A stretch of 22,297 nt of DNA, taken from positions 1-22,297 of IMG/VR virus record IMGVR_UViG_3300032229_001015. One strand, written 5' to 3'. The notes below the pieces were generated by a model, which was given only the letters and a program-made list of their open reading frames with translations, searched no databases and was not told where the DNA came from. The translations under genes and the position numbers were made by a program. Position 1 is the first letter of the stretch, and the number at the start of each line of letters is the position of its first letter. The stretch comes from a virus. This document shows positions 3,496 through 22,297 of this stretch, piece by piece.

Positions 3496-3502
3496 TATTT
3501 AT
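3496..3502 (+). promoter_or_regulatory. TATTTAT motif just before the HNH gene
   Basis: TATTTAT continues as TATTTATAATATATG, ending only 5 bases before the ATG at 3508. If it works as a -10-like element, transcription would begin at or inside the start codon and give a leaderless mRNA. The spacing is identical to the copy at 4168-4174. The function is inferred. Confidence 0.4.
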
Positions 3503-3507
3503 AATAT

Positions 3508-4005
3508 ATGAAAAGAGTTTGTCCAAAATGTGAATGTGAGATAGTTTACAATAATTATAAATCTTATCATTCCGCAAAAACTAGAAATAGCGTTTGTCGG
3601 AGTTGTAGAACAAGAATTGCGAATGCAAGTGATAAAAGAAATTCTAAAATGGAAAACAACCCCGCATGGAAGGGATATAAAGAAATACCTTTTAGTTGGT
3701 TTAGTAAATATTTTGAAAGAAAAGGAAAAAAAAGAGTTGGAAGTATAAAAATTACAGATGTATATGACATATGGGTAAGACAAAATAAAAAATGTGTGTT
3801 GTCAGGAATTGAAATTGATTTTATAAAAAGAAAAGACGGAATCTCAGCTTCAATAGATAGAATAGATTCAAATAAAGAATATAATATTGAAAATATTCAA
3901 CTAGTTCATAAAGATGTTAATTTGATGAAAAATAATTTTAATCAAGAATATTTCTTAATTATTTGTGAAAAAATTTGTAATGAAAGAAAAGAAAAAAATA
4001 GTTAA
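3508..4005 (+). CDS. HNH endonuclease, probable free-standing homing type
   Basis: This 165-residue protein probably nicks or cuts DNA and promotes its own spread. An N-terminal zinc-finger-like part has CPKC at residues 5-8 and CRSC at 30-33. The HNH core follows: CVLSG at 96-100, SIDRID at 115-120, then NIENIQLVHKDVN with His134 and Asn138, and a downstream NNFNQEYF segment. This layout is common in phage HNH proteins, in which the first His of the motif is often replaced as here. The gene looks even more AT-rich than its neighbours. It sits directly after the reductase terminator with its own TATTTAT motif, consistent with a mobile insertion near an nrd gene, a common site for phage homing endonucleases. 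Its last 26 bases overlap the next gene. Whether it is active and what it targets cannot be read from the sequence. Confidence 0.85.
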   Translation: MKRVCPKCECEIVYNNYKSYHSAKTRNSVCRSCRTRIANASDKRNSKMENNPAWKGYKEIPFSWFSKYFERKGKKRVGSIKITDVYDIWVRQNKKCVLSGIEIDFIKRKDGISASIDRIDSNKEYNIENIQLVHKDVNLMKNNFNQEYFLIICEKICNERKEKNS

Positions 4006-4167: not shown

Positions 4168-4174
4168 TATTTAT
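4168..4174 (+). promoter_or_regulatory. TATTTAT motif just before the gp25-like gene
   Basis: TATTTATCACATATG places the motif end 5 bases before the ATG at 4180, exactly as before the HNH gene. It is a candidate late promoter for the baseplate genes and, if so, predicts a leaderless transcript. The function is inferred from position and recurrence. Confidence 0.45.
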
Positions 4175-4179
4175 CACAT

Positions 4180-4653
4180 ATGGCAGATGGAGTTACATAT
4201 GGATTGAATTTCCCATTTCAGGATTCGACGAGAGGGGATTATTTACAACTAACCGAATTTCAAAGACAAGAAGTTAGGGCTGACCTAATTCATTTATTGT
4301 TAACAAGAAAAGGTTCAAGATATTATCTTCCTGATTTTGGAACAAGACTTTATGAATTTGTATTTGAACCTTTTGACGGATTAACGTTTAGTGCTATTGA
4401 AGCTGACATTAGGGATTCTATCCAAAGATACATGCCAAATCTATTAGTTAATAAAATAACCATAGAACCTGCAGACCCCGCAAATGAGTCAGATACTCAA
4501 ACAAATACTGTAGCAGTTGGTGATGCTAAAATGTATGACATTTACAGATTACCTGGTAAGGGAACCGCAGATTACACTGCAAAAATCAAAATAGATTATG
4601 CAACAAATTCACAAACATTTAGTGAGAGTGATTTTATAATTATCAATATTTAA
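4180..4653 (+). CDS. Baseplate wedge protein, T4 gp25-like
   Basis: This 157-residue protein belongs to the gp25-like baseplate family (gpW in P2), which joins the wedge to the tail tube and sheath end and helps start sheath assembly. The recognisable core is around residues 40-70: a helix EVRADLIHLLLTRKGSR followed by YLPDFGTRLYEFVFEP, the family's conserved helix, turn and PDFG-L-FEP segment. Family members often have Glu-Pro-Arg near the turn; here it reads KGSR. The C-terminal half ends in beta-strand-like segments and is somewhat longer than in the minimal family members. The stop is 5 bases before the next gene, which is baseplate-J-like. This is the adjacency seen in contractile phage and related injection systems. 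The start is the ATG at 4180, with no Shine-Dalgarno. Confidence 0.9.
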   Translation: MADGVTYGLNFPFQDSTRGDYLQLTEFQRQEVRADLIHLLLTRKGSRYYLPDFGTRLYEFVFEPFDGLTFSAIEADIRDSIQRYMPNLLVNKITIEPADPANESDTQTNTVAVGDAKMYDIYRLPGKGTADYTAKIKIDYATNSQTFSESDFIIINI

Positions 4654-11882: not shown

Positions 11883-13566
11883 GTTTACACTCATACCAAG
11901 TTCTCAACAGTATAAGTCAGCTCCTGCAAATGACCAAGAAGTATCTATTACTTTAGAACAAAAACAACAGGAAATCACTGAATATGATAGAAGTTCAACA
12001 CTGAGCTTAGCAGAAGTTTTTGATAGTGAAAGACAGGGTTGCACAGTTTTTAGACCTACATTTAAAATAAGTTATTTGTATGGTAATGTAATAACGGGAA
12101 CTACCGAATACATACCTTTTAAAAATAATATGTTTTATGTTGGTGCAGATGCGTCTATACAAAATGGTATTTGGAAAGGATTCCCACAATACTATGAATT
12201 TGATTTTTACAGACCAAACATAAGTGACCAACATTTAGACTATAAAGCAAAAAGTGCCTACACATATAATTGGACATATTATGTTTCTTATGCATTTGAA
12301 AATGATGAAAATAAAAAGTTGTATACAACACTATCAAGTCAAAATACTTGGATTGCCAAAAATGGTATTCCATTTACAATCAATAATGCTCAATCAAATG
12401 GTAGTAGAGTTATCAGGTTTGAATGTGTTGCACCTCATGGATTAACTATTGGAGAGTTTGTTCAGTTATCTTTTAGTTACAAACAGAATGATATCTTTGA
12501 AGTATACTCTTTAGGTAATGATACATTTGACAGCCAACCGTATATTTTTAATATTTTCAATAATGGATTTACAGGAAGCACATTTTTAAATGGTAAAGTT
12601 GGAACTTTTAAGAGGGTCCTTAATCCTGATAATTTATTGGAAACAACATCGAAATATTATGTGAGAAAACATAAAATCCTTACTAACTTAGACGACTTAA
12701 TTATAACTAAATCAGGGTTTGAAAAGAATGTTTTCAACGAAGAAAAAAAACTTGAGTTAAGTTCACTGACCCCAAACAATGTTACTAGAATCAGTCAAAA
12801 GACAAGTAGTAATGCTTATAATGTCTCATCTGCAATTGATTTCAATTTTAGTGGAGTTACTGATAATCAAAAAAGACCTCTCTCTGAAATATTCTTAACA
12901 ATTGTTTTCAAAGGTTACACAGGTTGGTTTAATGCACCATCAAATGGTGTTGGATTGAAACAAGGGTGGAAGTTTAATTTATCATCATCACCCAATTTTT
13001 ATTGGGACCAAACATTTGTTGAATCAAACACAACGGTGCCTTTATCATCTTACACCAAAACAAACGGAGTTACCAAAACTTTCTATTATAATGGGGACCT
13101 TAAGAAGGATGATATTATGGATGGTGATTTCTGTGAGTGGAATGACTATGAACAACTTGAAAGAGTCATCTCACCATATATTCAAAAGATTAAGTTTAAT
13201 CAAAATATATTTTCAACCACTCAGTTTCCTGACACTAATGCTCCGGGTTATTATTATGAACCACATAACAGTATGACACTCAGAACATTCTCTGATTACA
13301 TTGAAACAGGAAATGTTGGACAAGTTGAAAACGTTCCATCATATTGTTTCTTTTCAAATGCGGACCAACAGTTCAGATGGAGAGATTTATATACTTATGG
13401 ATTCGTTGATAACTTAGGGAGAGGAGTTGACTATCCATTCTTAAACAGTGCCCACTACCCATATCAAGGGATAATATTTAGATTAATACCTGAAGGTTCC
13501 AATTTCAATGGAAATCTTCTTGGTATTGCTTACCCAGAAAAACCACTTATCGATGGATGTGAATAA
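11875..13566 (+). CDS. Structural (baseplate/tail) protein of unknown family
   Basis: This protein of 563 residues is not one I recognise. It is rich in Asn, Tyr, Phe and Thr and seems mostly beta-structured, without signal peptide or membrane segments. A TGWFNAPSNGVGLKQGW region and a Trp-rich segment around FRWRDLYTYGFVDNLGRG stand out. The ATG at 11875 overlaps the previous stop (ATGAATAA), a typical coupled start. An in-frame ATG at 11866 would add three residues. The next gene begins inside its last codons. Its place between a giant baseplate protein and other tail genes, and the tight coupling, suggest a component of the same baseplate sub-assembly, perhaps in the position of T4 gp8. 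That equivalence rests on position alone. Confidence 0.8.
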   Translation: MNKFTLIPSSQQYKSAPANDQEVSITLEQKQQEITEYDRSSTLSLAEVFDSERQGCTVFRPTFKISYLYGNVITGTTEYIPFKNNMFYVGADASIQNGIWKGFPQYYEFDFYRPNISDQHLDYKAKSAYTYNWTYYVSYAFENDENKKLYTTLSSQNTWIAKNGIPFTINNAQSNGSRVIRFECVAPHGLTIGEFVQLSFSYKQNDIFEVYSLGNDTFDSQPYIFNIFNNGFTGSTFLNGKVGTFKRVLNPDNLLETTSKYYVRKHKILTNLDDLIITKSGFEKNVFNEEKKLELSSLTPNNVTRISQKTSSNAYNVSSAIDFNFSGVTDNQKRPLSEIFLTIVFKGYTGWFNAPSNGVGLKQGWKFNLSSSPNFYWDQTFVESNTTVPLSSYTKTNGVTKTFYYNGDLKKDDIMDGDFCEWNDYEQLERVISPYIQKIKFNQNIFSTTQFPDTNAPGYYYEPHNSMTLRTFSDYIETGNVGQVENVPSYCFFSNADQQFRWRDLYTYGFVDNLGRGVDYPFLNSAHYPYQGIIFRLIPEGSNFNGNLLGIAYPEKPLIDGCE

Positions 13567-16373: not shown

Positions 16374-19357
16374 TGGCAACATCAAGAAGCAAATATTTTT
16401 ACCCTCCGAGACCAGGTAATGGTGCGGGGACATTTTCCGATAACATTGTTGGATTACAAACAGTTAATGGAGGAGGTCTCACGCTCGGAACATTTGACTT
16501 TAATACTGTAGTTACTGAGAAGGTTAACAGATTCTTTAACGTAGGTGCATTTTCTGAACTTATTAGTTTGGAAGGGTTGGGTATTGATGACTTAACTGAA
16601 AGTAGAAGAATACAAGCGACACAGTTCCAAGTTTATCCGAACTATGACGTGTCTCAGGTTCTTAATTTTACAATGTATGGTTCACTTTCCAAAAGATTCA
16701 GTGTTTCCATAACTAAGATTATCAACTATTTCCCAGCTTCACTTGATGTTCAATACGAAACTGAAAATTTCTTAACAGGAGACACTGCGGTTAATATATC
16801 ATATAGTGCTTTGGAAGATGAAACATTCTTCAGAGTGAACCTCGATAGAATATTCAATCCGTTTGGTATTGATTACACTATAAGTGCGGCAACGAATTTA
16901 TCTTTAAGAGAAATTGTTGTATCACCACTTAGAAACTTGACTGAGACATATCTTGATTATGTTATAAATCTCAGTGGTATGTCATATCCCGTGGTTTCTT
17001 TTAATCCATCAGATTCACTTACTTCAGGATACATTGAATTTTATGTTTCGGGTGCGCCTTTTGGGACAACAGCCACAACATTTGAAGACAATTTTACAAT
17101 AAGACCTAGTGATTATATTGTTGATAAAAGTTTCTCAGAAAACTTTGATGAGGTTGAGAAATTTTTATTGAACAGACTTATAGTTCCAGAATATACTGCG
17201 TTTTTCCAAGTCCCACAACAAAACGAAGCGGGACAATATTATACTCAGTTCACTCAAGTAACATGGCCGAAAGAAGGTCCTTGGAATTTGAATATCCGTG
17301 GAATCTCTTTCGACCAATACCTTGAACAACTTCAAGAAATTGCAATCAATTTGGATTCATTCAAAACAAATTTGATTTCAAGATTTTTGGTAACCGATTC
17401 CTTAAAAGAGTTTGATACCCTTGGACAAAAAGTTGAAAAAATATTCCAAATATATGGAAGAAGTTTTGACCAAGTAAAACAGTTTATCGATACGTTGGGA
17501 TACATGAACTCAGTTAACTATAATGTTGGAAATGACATACCATCTCAACTATTGGTTAACTTATCTCAAACATTAGGTTGGCAATCAAATTTTTCTCCGA
17601 TAACAGAGGAGGATTTTTTAACTTCTGTTTTTGGAAACCAAAGTAATACAAACTATCCTGGTTATGCAAGAGCATTAACACCAACAGAATTAAACTACGC
17701 CTATTATAGAAATCTAATTTTAAATGCTGCATATCTTTTCAAATCAAAAGGAACGAGAAGGTCTGTTGAATTTCTTCTTAGATTAATTGGAGCACCTGAT
17801 TCTTTGATTGAATATAATGAACACATTTATTTGGCTGACCAAAGAATTGATTTAGAAAGATTTGATACTCAATGGGCACAAATTTCTGGTGGAACGTATG
17901 TTGAACAAACACCATCATATCTACCAGGAACAACATACAAAATCAAAGGACAAACGTTCAGTGCATATACATCAACAACAACATATGAAACTGCCAGAAT
18001 ATTAAGAAGTGAGTATCCAATTGATGCTGAAGGATATCCTAAAGCACCAAGAGACACAGAAACATATTTCTTCCAAATAGGCTCTGGTTGGTATGAAACT
18101 ACGCCACAACACAGAAGTCCTGACGAAGTTCAAGTAACAGGTAACGTGTTTACAGGACAGAATTATAATATTCAAACTCAGTTACAACCGTTCACCTATG
18201 GACAACCATATCTTGACAGATATAGAGATTTTCCATATATGACCGAAGGGTTCAAATTGAGAAAGGTTGTAGATAACAATAAATCATGGTTATCAGATGA
18301 CGAAAAGATTAGAGTTTCAACACAAGGAGACTATAATGCATATTATTATGTTTCTAATGAGAAGTTAGTTCTTAACGTAAAGAATGTTGATTTATTCTTA
18401 AATCCTGCACAAGGTTTTGTGTATGATGTTTGGAGAGAGTCAGTTGAATATGATTACCCCATTCCTGAATCAGGATTAACGGTAGGATATCCTGTTCCCG
18501 GTGGTGTCGATTGGACTTTTATAAATCCTGAGCCAAAGAAGAAAACGTTTTTTGAATTCTCACAAACATTTTGGGAGAACATGATTAACGTTAGAAACAG
18601 ACAATACATCACTGATGGTAAGACAGGAGGATATCCCGTATTACAATCAATCTTTTGGAAATATTTGGAATCAGAACAAACCGTTGGTATTCCAAATAAC
18701 AAATACACATATCAAAAACTAATTGATTATGTTGAAAACTTAGGACCTTATTGGACAAAGTTGATTGAACAAATGATTCCTGCAACTACAATTTGGATGG
18801 GGGGAGTTAAATACGAAAACTCAATTTTCCACAGACAAAAATTTGTTTATAGAAGACAAAGAGGTTGTCAGTTTGTCCCTGTTCCAAAATTACCTTGTTC
18901 ATTAGATGCTGAAATATTTCCTACTGATTGTGATTCCGAATTTGTGGAATTTTCAATATATCCATGGCTTAATGGGGACGTTCAGGTATCAAGTTTTGAG
19001 GCGATATTGAATAATGTCTTATCAAACTACTTTAAAAATGAAGGTTTGTTATCAACCCAATGTGATTTGAATTCTGTTGTTGCAACTTGGTATGTTGATT
19101 TAAAAATTGGTTCTAACACAATTATCCAAGAATCATTCTTTACAGGATATGGTAATACAGATGTGCCTACAACAACCGAGTGGAGAAATGCTTTGTTAGA
19201 GTATCTTCCTAATTTATATAATTATGGGTATACTTTCTTCATTCAGGGTAATATAATAAAAATTACGAGTATAACCGCAACACCTATTTATATTGATGAA
19301 GTAATCAGTCTAAACGCGGGAATTTCATTCACAATTAATTGCACGACAGTATCATGA
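16373..19357 (+). CDS. Baseplate protein with tail-protein-I (gpI/gp7)-like core
   Basis: This 994-residue protein likely forms part of the baseplate wedge and anchors fibres. The first ~330 residues are a beta-rich arm. Residues about 340-500 are helical and resemble the tail-protein-I family of contractile tails, with the hallmark SKGTRRSVEFLLRLIGAP segment at about 458-475 (a KGT followed by a helix, as in P2 gpI). The next ~350 residues are a beta-rich insertion with many Tyr and Trp. The C-terminal ~120 residues (from about 870) form a separate domain containing CDL at 897-899, followed by SFFTG and a W--L-LP segment. The same pattern ends the next protein. The start overlaps the previous stop (TAATG) and the stop overlaps the next start (ATGA). 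The gpI relation is an eye-level judgement; a gp7-like label is also possible. Confidence 0.78.
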   Translation: MATSRSKYFYPPRPGNGAGTFSDNIVGLQTVNGGGLTLGTFDFNTVVTEKVNRFFNVGAFSELISLEGLGIDDLTESRRIQATQFQVYPNYDVSQVLNFTMYGSLSKRFSVSITKIINYFPASLDVQYETENFLTGDTAVNISYSALEDETFFRVNLDRIFNPFGIDYTISAATNLSLREIVVSPLRNLTETYLDYVINLSGMSYPVVSFNPSDSLTSGYIEFYVSGAPFGTTATTFEDNFTIRPSDYIVDKSFSENFDEVEKFLLNRLIVPEYTAFFQVPQQNEAGQYYTQFTQVTWPKEGPWNLNIRGISFDQYLEQLQEIAINLDSFKTNLISRFLVTDSLKEFDTLGQKVEKIFQIYGRSFDQVKQFIDTLGYMNSVNYNVGNDIPSQLLVNLSQTLGWQSNFSPITEEDFLTSVFGNQSNTNYPGYARALTPTELNYAYYRNLILNAAYLFKSKGTRRSVEFLLRLIGAPDSLIEYNEHIYLADQRIDLERFDTQWAQISGGTYVEQTPSYLPGTTYKIKGQTFSAYTSTTTYETARILRSEYPIDAEGYPKAPRDTETYFFQIGSGWYETTPQHRSPDEVQVTGNVFTGQNYNIQTQLQPFTYGQPYLDRYRDFPYMTEGFKLRKVVDNNKSWLSDDEKIRVSTQGDYNAYYYVSNEKLVLNVKNVDLFLNPAQGFVYDVWRESVEYDYPIPESGLTVGYPVPGGVDWTFINPEPKKKTFFEFSQTFWENMINVRNRQYITDGKTGGYPVLQSIFWKYLESEQTVGIPNNKYTYQKLIDYVENLGPYWTKLIEQMIPATTIWMGGVKYENSIFHRQKFVYRRQRGCQFVPVPKLPCSLDAEIFPTDCDSEFVEFSIYPWLNGDVQVSSFEAILNNVLSNYFKNEGLLSTQCDLNSVVATWYVDLKIGSNTIIQESFFTGYGNTDVPTTTEWRNALLEYLPNLYNYGYTFFIQGNIIKITSITATPIYIDEVISLNAGISFTINCTTVS

Positions 19358-21504
19358 TGGCAGCACCACCAAATATCACCCCTTTAAATTACACGGTAAA
19401 CGTGACTGGAGATTGTAGTAATAATTCTTCAGGTATTATTTCTATCTTTGTTAGTGGAGGAACTCCTCCTTATTCATTTGATTGGCAAGATTTTTCACCA
19501 TGTGTTAATTCTGCTGGTCTTTGTGAAAAATTTGGTGTAGTTGGGGGAAATTATTCAGTTAGAATTAATGATAGTTCGTTACCACAAAACTTTCAGTTTA
19601 TTGTGAACATACCTGTGTCTAATGGAGTGTGTGCATCAATCGCACAGGTTCAGAACACAACTTGTAATTTTTTCAATGGAGCTGTAACAGGTTCTTCAAA
19701 TTCAGATTATTCTTCAACATTATTTTATCTTGTTGATTCGGGAGATACTTTATTACAATCAGCCACCACCGCAGTCCAAGACGTTGTTTTTACAAATTTA
19801 AGTGCGGGAACTTATAATTTAATTGCATTTGATTTAGGAGGATGTAGTGCAAGAACTCAAAGTTTTATTGTTGATAATTCAACATCATTAGATTTTGGTT
19901 TTTATGTTGTTCCAAATTCAAACTGTGGTTCAAATCAAACTAATGGTAAGTTATATGTAACAGGAGTTACAGGAACTGCACCGTTCACATATAATTGGAG
20001 TGTAGGAACTTCAACAGGTTCAACCCTTACAGGTTTAACTGCGGGAGTTTATTCTTGCACCGTTACTGACGCATATGGATGTCAAGCCAGCCAATCCGCT
20101 GAAATAACCACAGTTAATCCATTAGCTTTTGGATATTTTTCAGCGTCTACACCGACTTGTTTCGAAAGTGATGGTTCACTCACTTTATATATAACAGGAG
20201 GAACGGCACCTTATTATTATTCTGCGTCAACAGGAAACGTAGACGTTAGTTACTTACAGCAATTTGCATTGAGTGGACTTTCTTCAGGAACATACACTTT
20301 TTCAGTGACAGACGCGGGTCTTTGTAATATAAACGTAACAACAAGTTTACAGTCACCACAAAGTATAGCCTCAGTTGACATATCATCAACCAATTCAAAC
20401 TGTTCTTCAAACGACGGTTCAATCACAGTTGCCATATCACAAGGTAGCACACCATATACATACACGTTAGTTAAACCAAATGGTGATACTTTAAACACAC
20501 AATCAGCTCAACCTTTACAAGTTTACACAGGATTAGAAGAAGGAACTTATACAGTCTTTGTTTCAGATGTAACAGGTTGTGGAACCAGTCAAGAAGTATA
20601 TATCTTGGCTCAAGACACATTCACAATATCAACATCAATTACAGGAACAACTTGCGGAGCAAATAATGGAGCAGTTCAGGTCATCAGAACAACAGGTGGA
20701 ACAGGTCCTTATGACTTCTCTTTGGATGATGACCAAATTATATTAGACACCTCTTTATCCGCAATAACATTCTCAAATGTTTCTGCAGGACAACACACAG
20801 TAACAGTAACAGATTCAACAGGTTGCACTCAAACTCAACAAGTTGTAGTTACCTCTAAACCTTTATTAACATTCTCACTTTACTCCGAAGGTTGTGGAAC
20901 AGGAAATGAAGGTGTGTTAACAGCATTCATATCTTCAGGAACTCCGCCATTTACATTTGATTGGTCAAACAATGTTTCAGGAAATCCTCAGCAAATATCA
21001 GTTTCGGGATTAAGTGCGGGGACATATACTTTAACAATCGTAGATGCAAACGCTTGTTCATATCAAAGAACTGCGGTTATATCTTGTGATGCCAATTTTG
21101 TTTCATATCAAACATATTTGATGGGTTCAGAATCTTTAACAGTTCAATCTCAATCTCAGTGTGGTTTATTACAAATGTTAAATGATGGTTATCAAGATTT
21201 AATACAAGGAAATGAAAATTGTGATTTGATAAGTGCGGTTTATACTGCAAAAGTTTATACCGAACCTGGCGGACTTTCAAATCAACAATCTTTTTACACA
21301 GGAACAACACTTAACATTGCACCTTCCGACAACTTATGGTATGATACTATAAAGACTTTGTTATTAACAATACCTGGTATTTCAAATGTTGTGGTTGACC
21401 CAATAAACAACGAGTTATCAATTTCTACAGACCCTAACAATACGACTATTACAAGTCAAAAAATAGTTATAGAGTTGATAATCAATTATGATATAAATTG
21501 TTAA
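19354..21504 (+). CDS. SprB-repeat fibre/adhesin-like protein
   Basis: This 716-residue protein is probably a tail fibre or spike that contacts the host surface. It is built mainly of seven SprB-type repeats of about 78-87 residues (first Cys of each at residues 21, 104, 191, 269, 350, 434 and 514). Each follows the pattern C...G.I...GG.PY.Y.W...L.AG.Y...V.D..GC; for example SGGTPPYSFDW in repeat 1 and GLTAGVYSCTVTDAYGC in repeat 3. SprB repeats are known from the gliding adhesin SprB and other surface proteins of Flavobacteria. There is no signal peptide, as expected for a virion protein. The C-terminal ~120 residues are a non-repeat domain shared with the preceding protein (CDL at 623-625). 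The ATG at 19354 overlaps the preceding TGA; a second ATG at 19357 is equally possible. An open frame from TTG 19339 is less likely. Confidence 0.87.
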   Translation: MMAAPPNITPLNYTVNVTGDCSNNSSGIISIFVSGGTPPYSFDWQDFSPCVNSAGLCEKFGVVGGNYSVRINDSSLPQNFQFIVNIPVSNGVCASIAQVQNTTCNFFNGAVTGSSNSDYSSTLFYLVDSGDTLLQSATTAVQDVVFTNLSAGTYNLIAFDLGGCSARTQSFIVDNSTSLDFGFYVVPNSNCGSNQTNGKLYVTGVTGTAPFTYNWSVGTSTGSTLTGLTAGVYSCTVTDAYGCQASQSAEITTVNPLAFGYFSASTPTCFESDGSLTLYITGGTAPYYYSASTGNVDVSYLQQFALSGLSSGTYTFSVTDAGLCNINVTTSLQSPQSIASVDISSTNSNCSSNDGSITVAISQGSTPYTYTLVKPNGDTLNTQSAQPLQVYTGLEEGTYTVFVSDVTGCGTSQEVYILAQDTFTISTSITGTTCGANNGAVQVIRTTGGTGPYDFSLDDDQIILDTSLSAITFSNVSAGQHTVTVTDSTGCTQTQQVVVTSKPLLTFSLYSEGCGTGNEGVLTAFISSGTPPFTFDWSNNVSGNPQQISVSGLSAGTYTLTIVDANACSYQRTAVISCDANFVSYQTYLMGSESLTVQSQSQCGLLQMLNDGYQDLIQGNENCDLISAVYTAKVYTEPGGLSNQQSFYTGTTLNIAPSDNLWYDTIKTLLLTIPGISNVVVDPINNELSISTDPNNTTITSQKIVIELIINYDINC
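19414..21057 (+). repeat. Seven tandem SprB-type repeats (protein level)
   Basis: Repeat units begin at the Cys codons at 19414, 19663, 19924, 20158, 20401, 20653 and 20893, and the last one ends near the Cys codon at 21055. The spacing is 249, 261, 234, 243, 252 and 240 bases. The units are diverged at the DNA level, so they are old or diversified rather than freshly amplified. Repeat 2 lacks the GG.PY.Y core and is the most degenerate. Confidence 0.85.
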
Positions 21505-21505
21505 T

Positions 21506-21841
21506 ATGGTTCAGGTAAGAATAGAAGGAATAAGTGGAGCGGTATATCCAATTTCAGTTTTTATTGCAGATTATTATGGGAATAATCAAACGTTAATTGG
21601 AACCATATTATCAGGTCCCGTACCACCTCAAGTAAGTTACAATACAAGTATTCCAAGCTTGTTTTATACCGCACCGCAAATAATGCTCATCTTAAGAGAC
21701 TCTGCGGGTTGTGAAACATTCCAATTATTAGACTGCACATTTGGTTGTGCGTTCGAAATTACAATTCAGGAAGTAAATTGTGTTGTTAACGTATCTATCG
21801 AAGAAGGAGTGTGTGGGTTTAACATTGTTTGCACAACATAA
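21506..21841 (+). CDS. Small beta-rich fibre-associated protein
   Basis: This 111-residue protein has no signal peptide or membrane segment. It looks all-beta, with YPISVFIADYYGNNQTLIGT, then FYTAPQIMLILRDSAGCETF, and six cysteines, five of them in the last ~45 residues. The pattern of a short beta-domain with Asp/Tyr/Gly turns and a GCE-F segment resembles the head domain of the next gene product and the strands of the SprB-type repeats, so I suspect a fibre-tip or adaptor role. The ATG at 21506 is separated by one base from the previous stop (TAATATG), so it is coupled to the SprB-repeat gene. A hairpin at 21848-21866 follows the stop, making this the last gene of the operon from 15465. The function is not established. 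Confidence 0.72.
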   Translation: MVQVRIEGISGAVYPISVFIADYYGNNQTLIGTILSGPVPPQVSYNTSIPSLFYTAPQIMLILRDSAGCETFQLLDCTFGCAFEITIQEVNCVVNVSIEEGVCGFNIVCTT

Positions 21842-21870: not shown

Positions 21871-21892
21871 AATAAAGTTCACTGAAACAATA

Positions 21893-21928
21893 CATCTGCG
21901 GTATTTATTAAATAAAAATTCGCGGATG
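21893..21928 (+). promoter_or_regulatory. Leader with TATTTAT motif inside an inverted repeat covering the start codon
   Basis: TATTTAT at 21902-21908 lies 17 bases before the ATG at 21926. It sits in the loop of an inverted repeat: CATCTGCG (21893-21900) pairs with CGCGGATG (21921-21928) with one G-T wobble, extendable by one A-T pair (21892/21929). If transcription begins upstream, the hairpin would bury the ATG. If it begins at the motif, the left arm is absent and the ATG is free. The role is inferred. Confidence 0.4.
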
Positions 21929-22297
21929 TCATTATATTCCATAATAGTAACTAACAATGCCCCTGGTTGCGGAACAGAAATCGAACAACAACTTACCGTT
22001 ACCGCTTGCACAACGTATATTGTAAGACTTACTTCCAACTCAAATGCTATAGGTCCTTTCAATGTTTATGTTGATACTACAGGGTCAACACCAATCTATT
22101 CCGCACAGACAAGAACTCAGATGATTAATGGTGTGGAAGTCCAACTTGGACCGTGTGCAACACCAACACCGACTCCAACTCCATCTGTAACACCAGCAGA
22201 ACAAACACCAACACCAACTCCAACAATATCTCAAACACCAACTATTACTCCAACAATAACGCCAACAATAAGCGAAACACCAACTCAAACGCCTACA
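21926..22297 (+). CDS. Fibre-like protein with Thr-Pro-rich linker, partial (3' end outside window)
   Basis: The frame is open from the ATG at 21926 to the right edge, giving 124 codons with no stop, so the gene continues outside the window. The first ~77 residues form a beta-rich head (YSIIVTNNAPGCGTE at the start; FNVYVDTTGSTPIYSAQTRT; then a GVEVQLGPC end). From residue 79 on, the protein turns into a Thr-Pro-rich linker (TPTPTPTPSVTP and variants such as ISQTPTITPTITPT). Such linkers act as stiff extended spacers, so a fibre or surface-displayed structural protein is likely. The start is supported by the TATTTAT motif 17 bases upstream and by the preceding terminator. An open frame on the opposite strand (22085-22288) is only the complement of the linker. 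Confidence 0.75.
   Translation, partial: MSLYSIIVTNNAPGCGTEIEQQLTVTACTTYIVRLTSNSNAIGPFNVYVDTTGSTPIYSAQTRTQMINGVEVQLGPCATPTPTPTPSVTPAEQTPTPTPTISQTPTITPTITPTISETPTQTPT
22160..22297 (+). repeat. Thr-Pro codon repeat (low complexity)
   Basis: From 22160 to the edge the DNA is an imperfect array of ACA/ACT/ACC/ACG and CCA/CCT/CCG codons, broken by ATA, TCT, GTA, GAA and CAA codons. It encodes the linker of the last gene. Such arrays can change length by slippage or recombination. Confidence 0.8.

Follow-up and report, generated by a model that had tools for sequence, protein, structure and literature searches.

Results

The fibre-like gene and its surroundings

The stretch of DNA analysed here (the window) is a virus record of 22,297 bases that carries genes for a DnaB-like helicase, a ribonucleotide reductase, an endonuclease VII-like protein and T4-type baseplate wedge proteins. 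The features needed below lie at its end:

21506–21841, + strand: upstream gene (111 aa), possible source of read-through RNA
21892–21901, + strand: left arm of the hairpin, ACATCTGCGG, 5' of the presumed RNA start and so missing from RNA begun at the gene's own promoter
21902–21908, + strand: TATTTAT, motif of the presumed late-type promoter, part of the loop and apical stem
21904–21916, + strand: near-palindromic core TTTATTAAATAAA, which makes the apical stem and is kept in most relatives
21913, + strand: presumed RNA start, about 5 nt past the motif, placed from motif-to-start distances
21920–21929, + strand: right arm of the hairpin, TCGCGGATGT, including the start codon
21926–22297, + strand: fibre-like gene, start codon at 21926–21928, continuing past the window end

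The product of the last gene has a conserved N-terminus of about 75 amino acids, a Pro/Thr-rich stalk and a variable C-terminus. By this architecture it appears to be fibre-like, no family match giving a more exact name: Pfam has no family for the gene or for five longer relatives, PHROGs has none for the gene, and a nucleotide search of the gene region among named phages gave no match. Relatives of the N-terminal domain were likewise absent from 50,697 phage records at E 1e-3. A weak PDB match to a Toxoplasma chain (E 1.5e-4) covers the repeat region and was judged compositional. The gene two upstream (19339–21504) matches SprB repeats in Pfam and Hoc-like head decoration proteins in PHROGs; the SprB repeats are a hint of a Bacteroidota host.

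A same-strand ORF ends 40–106 nt before the motif in all 45 distinct sequences of this locus that we compared (see below), which makes read-through into the fibre-like gene plausible. No promoter motif besides TATTTAT was found before the upstream genes in the window; the + strand has one loose match, at 12497, to a host-type promoter consensus. Upstream in the window an A+T-only hairpin is followed by a U run and could lower read-through; a terminator scan that required G-C pairs did not report it. Elsewhere, a GGTCGG/CCGACC hairpin (1464–1484) directly 5' of the TATTTAT ahead of the ribonucleotide reductase gene is perhaps the terminator of the helicase gene.

TATTTAT as a presumed promoter motif

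An earlier note on this DNA took TATTTAT for a promoter motif, and the longer contigs of related phages bear this out. In the window its count is no higher than chance (11 vs 10.7 expected); what is unusual is its placement. The + strand holds 10 of the 11 copies, and seven of these 10 lie in gaps before genes (1485, 3496, 4168, 6504, 6564, 15444 and 21902). When 7-mers were counted in the 60 non-coding bases before genes, TATTTAT came first in each of seven longer contigs and tied for first in the window. The T4 late motif TATAAATA was rejected as the promoter on this ground; before genes, TATAAAT counts 2–12 per longer contig (n = 7) and 0 in the window, vs 18–63 and 5 for TATTTAT. In a contig of 165.5 kb, TATTTAT occurs 43 times in these upstream bases vs 14 for its reverse complement, where 0.70 would be expected from coding sequence. 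Gene calls on the contigs were mechanical, and covered 200 kb of the 317 kb of contig G003 and 100,000 of the 101,887 bases of G006.

The distance from the motif to the start codon is also informative. Among 259 genes it is 0–3 nt in 3, 4 nt in 41 and 5 nt in 30, with a second peak at 13–17 nt (87 of 259). The sharp lower edge at 4–5 nt is simply explained if RNA begins about 5 nt after the motif, and TATTTAT is thus likely, on its placement, to be promoter-like with an RNA start at that distance. The start codons that lie 4–5 nt past the motif (71 of 259), of which the endonuclease VII-like and gp25-like genes of the window are examples (3496–3508 and 4168–4180), suggest that many mRNAs are leaderless.

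Of 30 motif-bearing genes in contig G005, 20 were scanned; 10 had no match, 5 matched families of unknown function, and the remaining 5 could be named, each as a structural protein (tail tube, portal, prohead protease, head-tail adaptor and, by a weak match, tape measure). Within the window, genes preceded by the motif include the gp25-like and other tail-region genes but also those for ribonucleotide reductase and endonuclease VII, so that 'late-type' is a fair reading of the motif and not a proof. No gp55-like late sigma factor was named among 20 chosen proteins of the approximately 160 gene calls of contig G001, and nothing that we judged relevant to TATTTAT was found in the open-licence literature on phage promoters, on T4-like or Bacteroidetes late promoters, or on leaderless late phage transcripts. 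In two contigs, divergent genes have a TATTTAT on each strand between them (G001:70273/73035 and G005:71155/73164), which looks like a two-way promoter region.

A predicted hairpin over the start codon

The inverted repeat described in the earlier note is present where it had been placed, covering the ATG at 21926–21928 and enclosing TATTTAT: ACATCTGCG (21892–21900) pairs with CGCGGATGT (21921–21929) with one U-G wobble. A second wobble, G21901–U21920, extends the stem to 10 pairs (21892–21901 with 21920–21929), and within the loop UUUAU and AUAAA are predicted to form a small apical stem. The 42-nt hairpin alone has a predicted energy of −13.2 kcal/mol, which none of 200 shuffles equals (mean −3.74, sd 1.66). 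With 66 nt, 2 of 200 shuffles do as well, and at 144 nt little of the excess remains (z −1.30; 22 of 200 shuffles do as well). Because the excess drops as flank is added, a single fold would not settle the hairpin; the relatives do. No Shine-Dalgarno sequence is evident before the start codon in the window, no U run follows the right arm there, and an Rfam search gave no match.

Conservation in related phages

Viral contigs were scanned with the N-terminal domain of the gene, which yielded 81 related loci: the main scan kept 80 of 98 relatives, and one locus (L031) was added from another scan. With the window they make 82 rows, which collapse to 45 distinct arm pairs. In one locus (L070) the start codon was placed 6 nt further upstream, at an in-frame ATG, and in two (L079 and L080), where a pair of motifs overlap, the first one was taken. 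TATTTAT lies 21–25 nt before the ATG of the same gene in all 81 loci and in the window, and it comes directly after the left arm in 82 of 82 rows, a placement with which RNA begun past the motif would lack that arm. The surrounding block is mostly GTATTTATTWAATAAAA among the relatives; with at most one mismatch, the extended block is present in all seven longer contigs, two of which have a second match.

In one register, 372 of 495 cells (75%) are paired across the 45 arm pairs, whereas registers slid along the alignment pair in 35–47% of cells. A second count of slid registers gave 35–50% over all pairs and 61% for the subset k3–10 slid by +4. The percentage paired and the covariation score exceed all 500 column shuffles and the two-sided cells exceed 499; the two-sided pair count and the pair-type count do not stand out (438 and 365 of 500 shuffles as high). 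When whole right arms were swapped between sequences, the observed pairing was reached in 2 of 2000 trials. As the sequences are related, we also used a null in which columns were simulated independently along a tree built from the coding region (total length 9.4). Against this null the summed covariation excess is 16.1 (null −0.1, sd 4.6, P = 0.0005), although the register slid by −1 also reaches P = 0.005.

The covariation comes mostly from a single pair, k = 10 (P = 0.001), which joins the left arm to the first base of codon 2 and is A-U in 27 of the 45 sequences, U-A in 7, U-G in 2, C-G in 1 and other in 8. Pairs 4 and 6 are marginal (P 0.026 and 0.049) and the remaining eight show no covariation. 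U-G pairs are plentiful, in 28 and 24 of 45 sequences at two positions, which argues for pairing in RNA rather than a DNA palindrome. The comparison of arms that the earlier note had proposed thus found pairing kept in register with wobbles and some compensatory changes, the covariation residing mostly in one pair. Near-complete stems occur in the window, in L002, L003, L004, L019 and L021, and in the distant L070; L062, L071–L073 and L081 have a stem with an internal loop in the unchanged register, and in many other relatives mismatches break the stem or a different fold closes the start. The arrangement is conserved in these phages, though energetically weak in 7 of the 45 sequences, and the predicted fold and the conserved register point to an RNA helix that would close the start codon.

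Predicted opening of the start codon in the two RNA forms

If RNA starts about 5 nt past the motif, own-promoter RNA is without the left arm. For the window, the predicted cost of opening the start is 13.6 kcal/mol in the full RNA vs 3.0 kcal/mol in the own-promoter RNA, and the medians over the 45 sequences are 7.7 and 2.8 kcal/mol. Forty control genes, which are other TATTTAT genes, give 4.3 vs 2.4 kcal/mol, and the differences exceed those of the controls (Mann-Whitney p = 2e-5, relatedness ignored), although some controls are likewise large (10.9, 8.2 and 6.9 kcal/mol). Folding both forms gave a difference of the kind that the earlier note had supposed: the opening cost drops more than at the controls, but the difference is below 2 kcal/mol in 7 of the 45 sequences (L005, L037, L045, L055, L061, L063 and L082) and about 2 kcal/mol in L032 and L056. 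The pairing probability of the AUG alone discriminates weakly between the forms (above 0.8 in 26 vs 17 of 45).

The G+C-rich ends of the arms are a feature of the fibre-like gene rather than of TATTTAT promoters at large. GG precedes the motif in 42 of 45 sequences of this gene vs 18 of 253 other TATTTAT genes, and CGG or CGA precedes the start in 37 of 45 vs 1 of 253. The 253 may still include up to two copies of the fibre-like gene (in G003 and G004); the counts are unchanged under an alternative exclusion of this gene.

Similar arrangements at other genes

We rejected the idea that TATTTAT genes as a class have masked starts: the median opening cost over 245 such genes, copies of the fibre-like gene included, is 4.81 vs 4.73 for shuffles. 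The strong tail is nevertheless enriched, with 9 of the 245 genes at 11 kcal/mol or above (shuffle mean 2.4, maximum 5), and five of them are copies of a single other gene, which encodes about 125 amino acids and in which CATAACAATA-TATT-TATTGTTATG covers the start. Its coordinates, and those of a third gene, are:

G001:62099–62479, − strand: approximately 125-aa gene, with orthologues in G002, G003, G004, G005 and G007 (loci L268–L347)
G001:56201 (+ strand), G002:58512, G003:57281, G005:56609, G006:91835: GGATTAT...ATAATCC repeat sites

The start codon of the 125-aa gene lies in a 10-bp palindrome that encloses TATTTAT, and the motif is only 4 nt before the start. Among 80 of its 293 loci, 66 pair fully, 7 partly and 7 not at all, and the stems show wobble changes of three kinds and a single two-sided change; the loci are 86–100% identical in protein and hence not independent. 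At the third gene, in five contigs, the motif lies within the GGATTAT/ATAATCC inverted repeat upstream of the start. The occurrence of a similar arrangement at other genes indicates that the promoter-in-hairpin arrangement probably arose more than once.

Discussion

In this work we examined a hairpin that holds a promoter-like motif in its loop and a start codon in its stem. We consider it probable, with room for doubt, that positions 21892–21929 act as a promoter-choice translation switch for the fibre-like gene. Read-through RNA from the upstream tail operon would carry both arms, fold and close the start codon, while RNA begun at the TATTTAT promoter of the loop, about 5 nt past the motif, would be without the left arm and have an open start. 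Our computed results are the presence and conservation of the hairpin, the placement of TATTTAT as at a promoter, and the predicted difference in opening; from them we infer the RNA start, the read-through and the effect on translation. The likely use would be to tie protein output to the gene's own promoter, independently of transcription of the upstream operon. The anatomy of the switch put forward in the earlier note is well supported, but its predicted effect is small in 7 of the 45 sequences.

Other readings of the same hairpin have to be considered. It could be a processing site or a 3'-end protector of the upstream tail-operon mRNA, with closure of the start as a side effect; in the window it lies 51 nt past the upstream stop codon, and all 45 sequences have a same-strand ORF that stops shortly before it. 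We find this unlikely, since the pairing takes in the start codon and runs on into codon 2, where covariation is strongest, and no U run comes after the right arm; for mere 3' protection, neither a position at the start codon nor a promoter in the loop would be required. That the inverted repeat is instead a protein binding site, as a DNA operator or in RNA, for example for an autoregulator, appears slightly less probable still. An operator that overlaps a late promoter is described for I-TevI in the part of PMC2988022 that concerns it, and the core TTTATT-W-AATAAA is almost symmetrical in most relatives; yet the abundant G-U pairs suit RNA pairing and not DNA symmetry, and the sequences of the arms change while their pairing stays. 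A protein may nevertheless bind the RNA.

The arms might also be a gene-specific extension of the promoter on one side and a translation start context on the other, complementary by chance. Both arm ends are conserved in sequence, and consensus arms alone give much pairing, right-arm swaps averaging 355.7 of 495 paired cells vs 372 observed. Chance complementarity would, however, hardly account for the register and covariation tests, and such arm ends are rare at the 253 other TATTTAT genes, so that we rate it as low as a protein site.

Returning to the promoter-choice switch, only motifs of the same class were found upstream, and insulation from the operon therefore fits better than early/late timing: a working switch would uncouple the gene's output from the upstream operon instead of dividing early from late expression. 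A wider proposal, which is possible but which we hold as doubtful, is that a far-T4-like lineage, in which late-type promoters carry TATTTAT and many mRNAs are leaderless, has promoter-in-hairpin insulators at several genes, each translated only from own-promoter RNA despite transcription of the whole operon. For a large group of uncultured, T4-related phages, the analysis provides a promoter motif that can be tested and points to mRNAs that are probably leaderless. If the switch is real, concealment of a start codon in read-through RNA, a device known from T4, is also used far from T4, with a different promoter and in the service of a presumed virion protein, and such a hairpin can, besides timing expression, keep the outputs of genes of one expression class apart.

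Among the nearest named phages, judged by the portal protein of contig G005, are Flavobacterium phage vB_FspM_immuto (38.0% identity), Microcystis phage Mel-JY01 (35.8%) and Rhodothermus phage RM378 (33.7%), all below 40%. In immuto TATTTAT is likewise over-represented before genes (31, against 9 for the reverse complement) but ranks second, and the nearest named phages lack the N-terminal domain of the fibre-like gene (50,697 phage records, E 1e-3).

The closest known systems are in T4 and Aeh1. For T4 e (lysozyme), soc and 49, the passages of the review PMC3014915 that treat these genes describe a hairpin that closes the translation start in read-through RNA and a promoter in the region of the left arm that yields RNA without that arm, and the locus studied here is predicted to be like them, as so described, in both respects. 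It differs in that T4 uses TATAAATA and has long RNAs of the early class, whereas here the motif is TATTTAT and the upstream genes have the same motif class only; TATAAATA is the gp55-dependent late promoter of T4, and is not what was found upstream of genes here. The products differ too, being fibre-like here and serving lysis, capsid decoration or recombination in T4. For the homing endonuclease genes I-TevI, I-TevII, I-TevIII and segB of T4 and mobE of Aeh1, the relevant part of the review PMC2988022 reports a hairpin that masks the ribosome binding site in upstream-initiated RNA, and a late promoter sited so that late RNA cannot form the hairpin. Our locus shares with these genes, as far as that account goes, a hairpin and a promoter placement that would block it in own-promoter RNA; those hairpins mask a Shine-Dalgarno sequence, whereas the stem here contains the start codon itself, and the fibre-like gene is not a homing endonuclease. 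In conclusion, the promoter-in-hairpin arrangement is known from T4, and what is new here is the motif, the type of gene, the start codon in the stem and, probably, the purpose.
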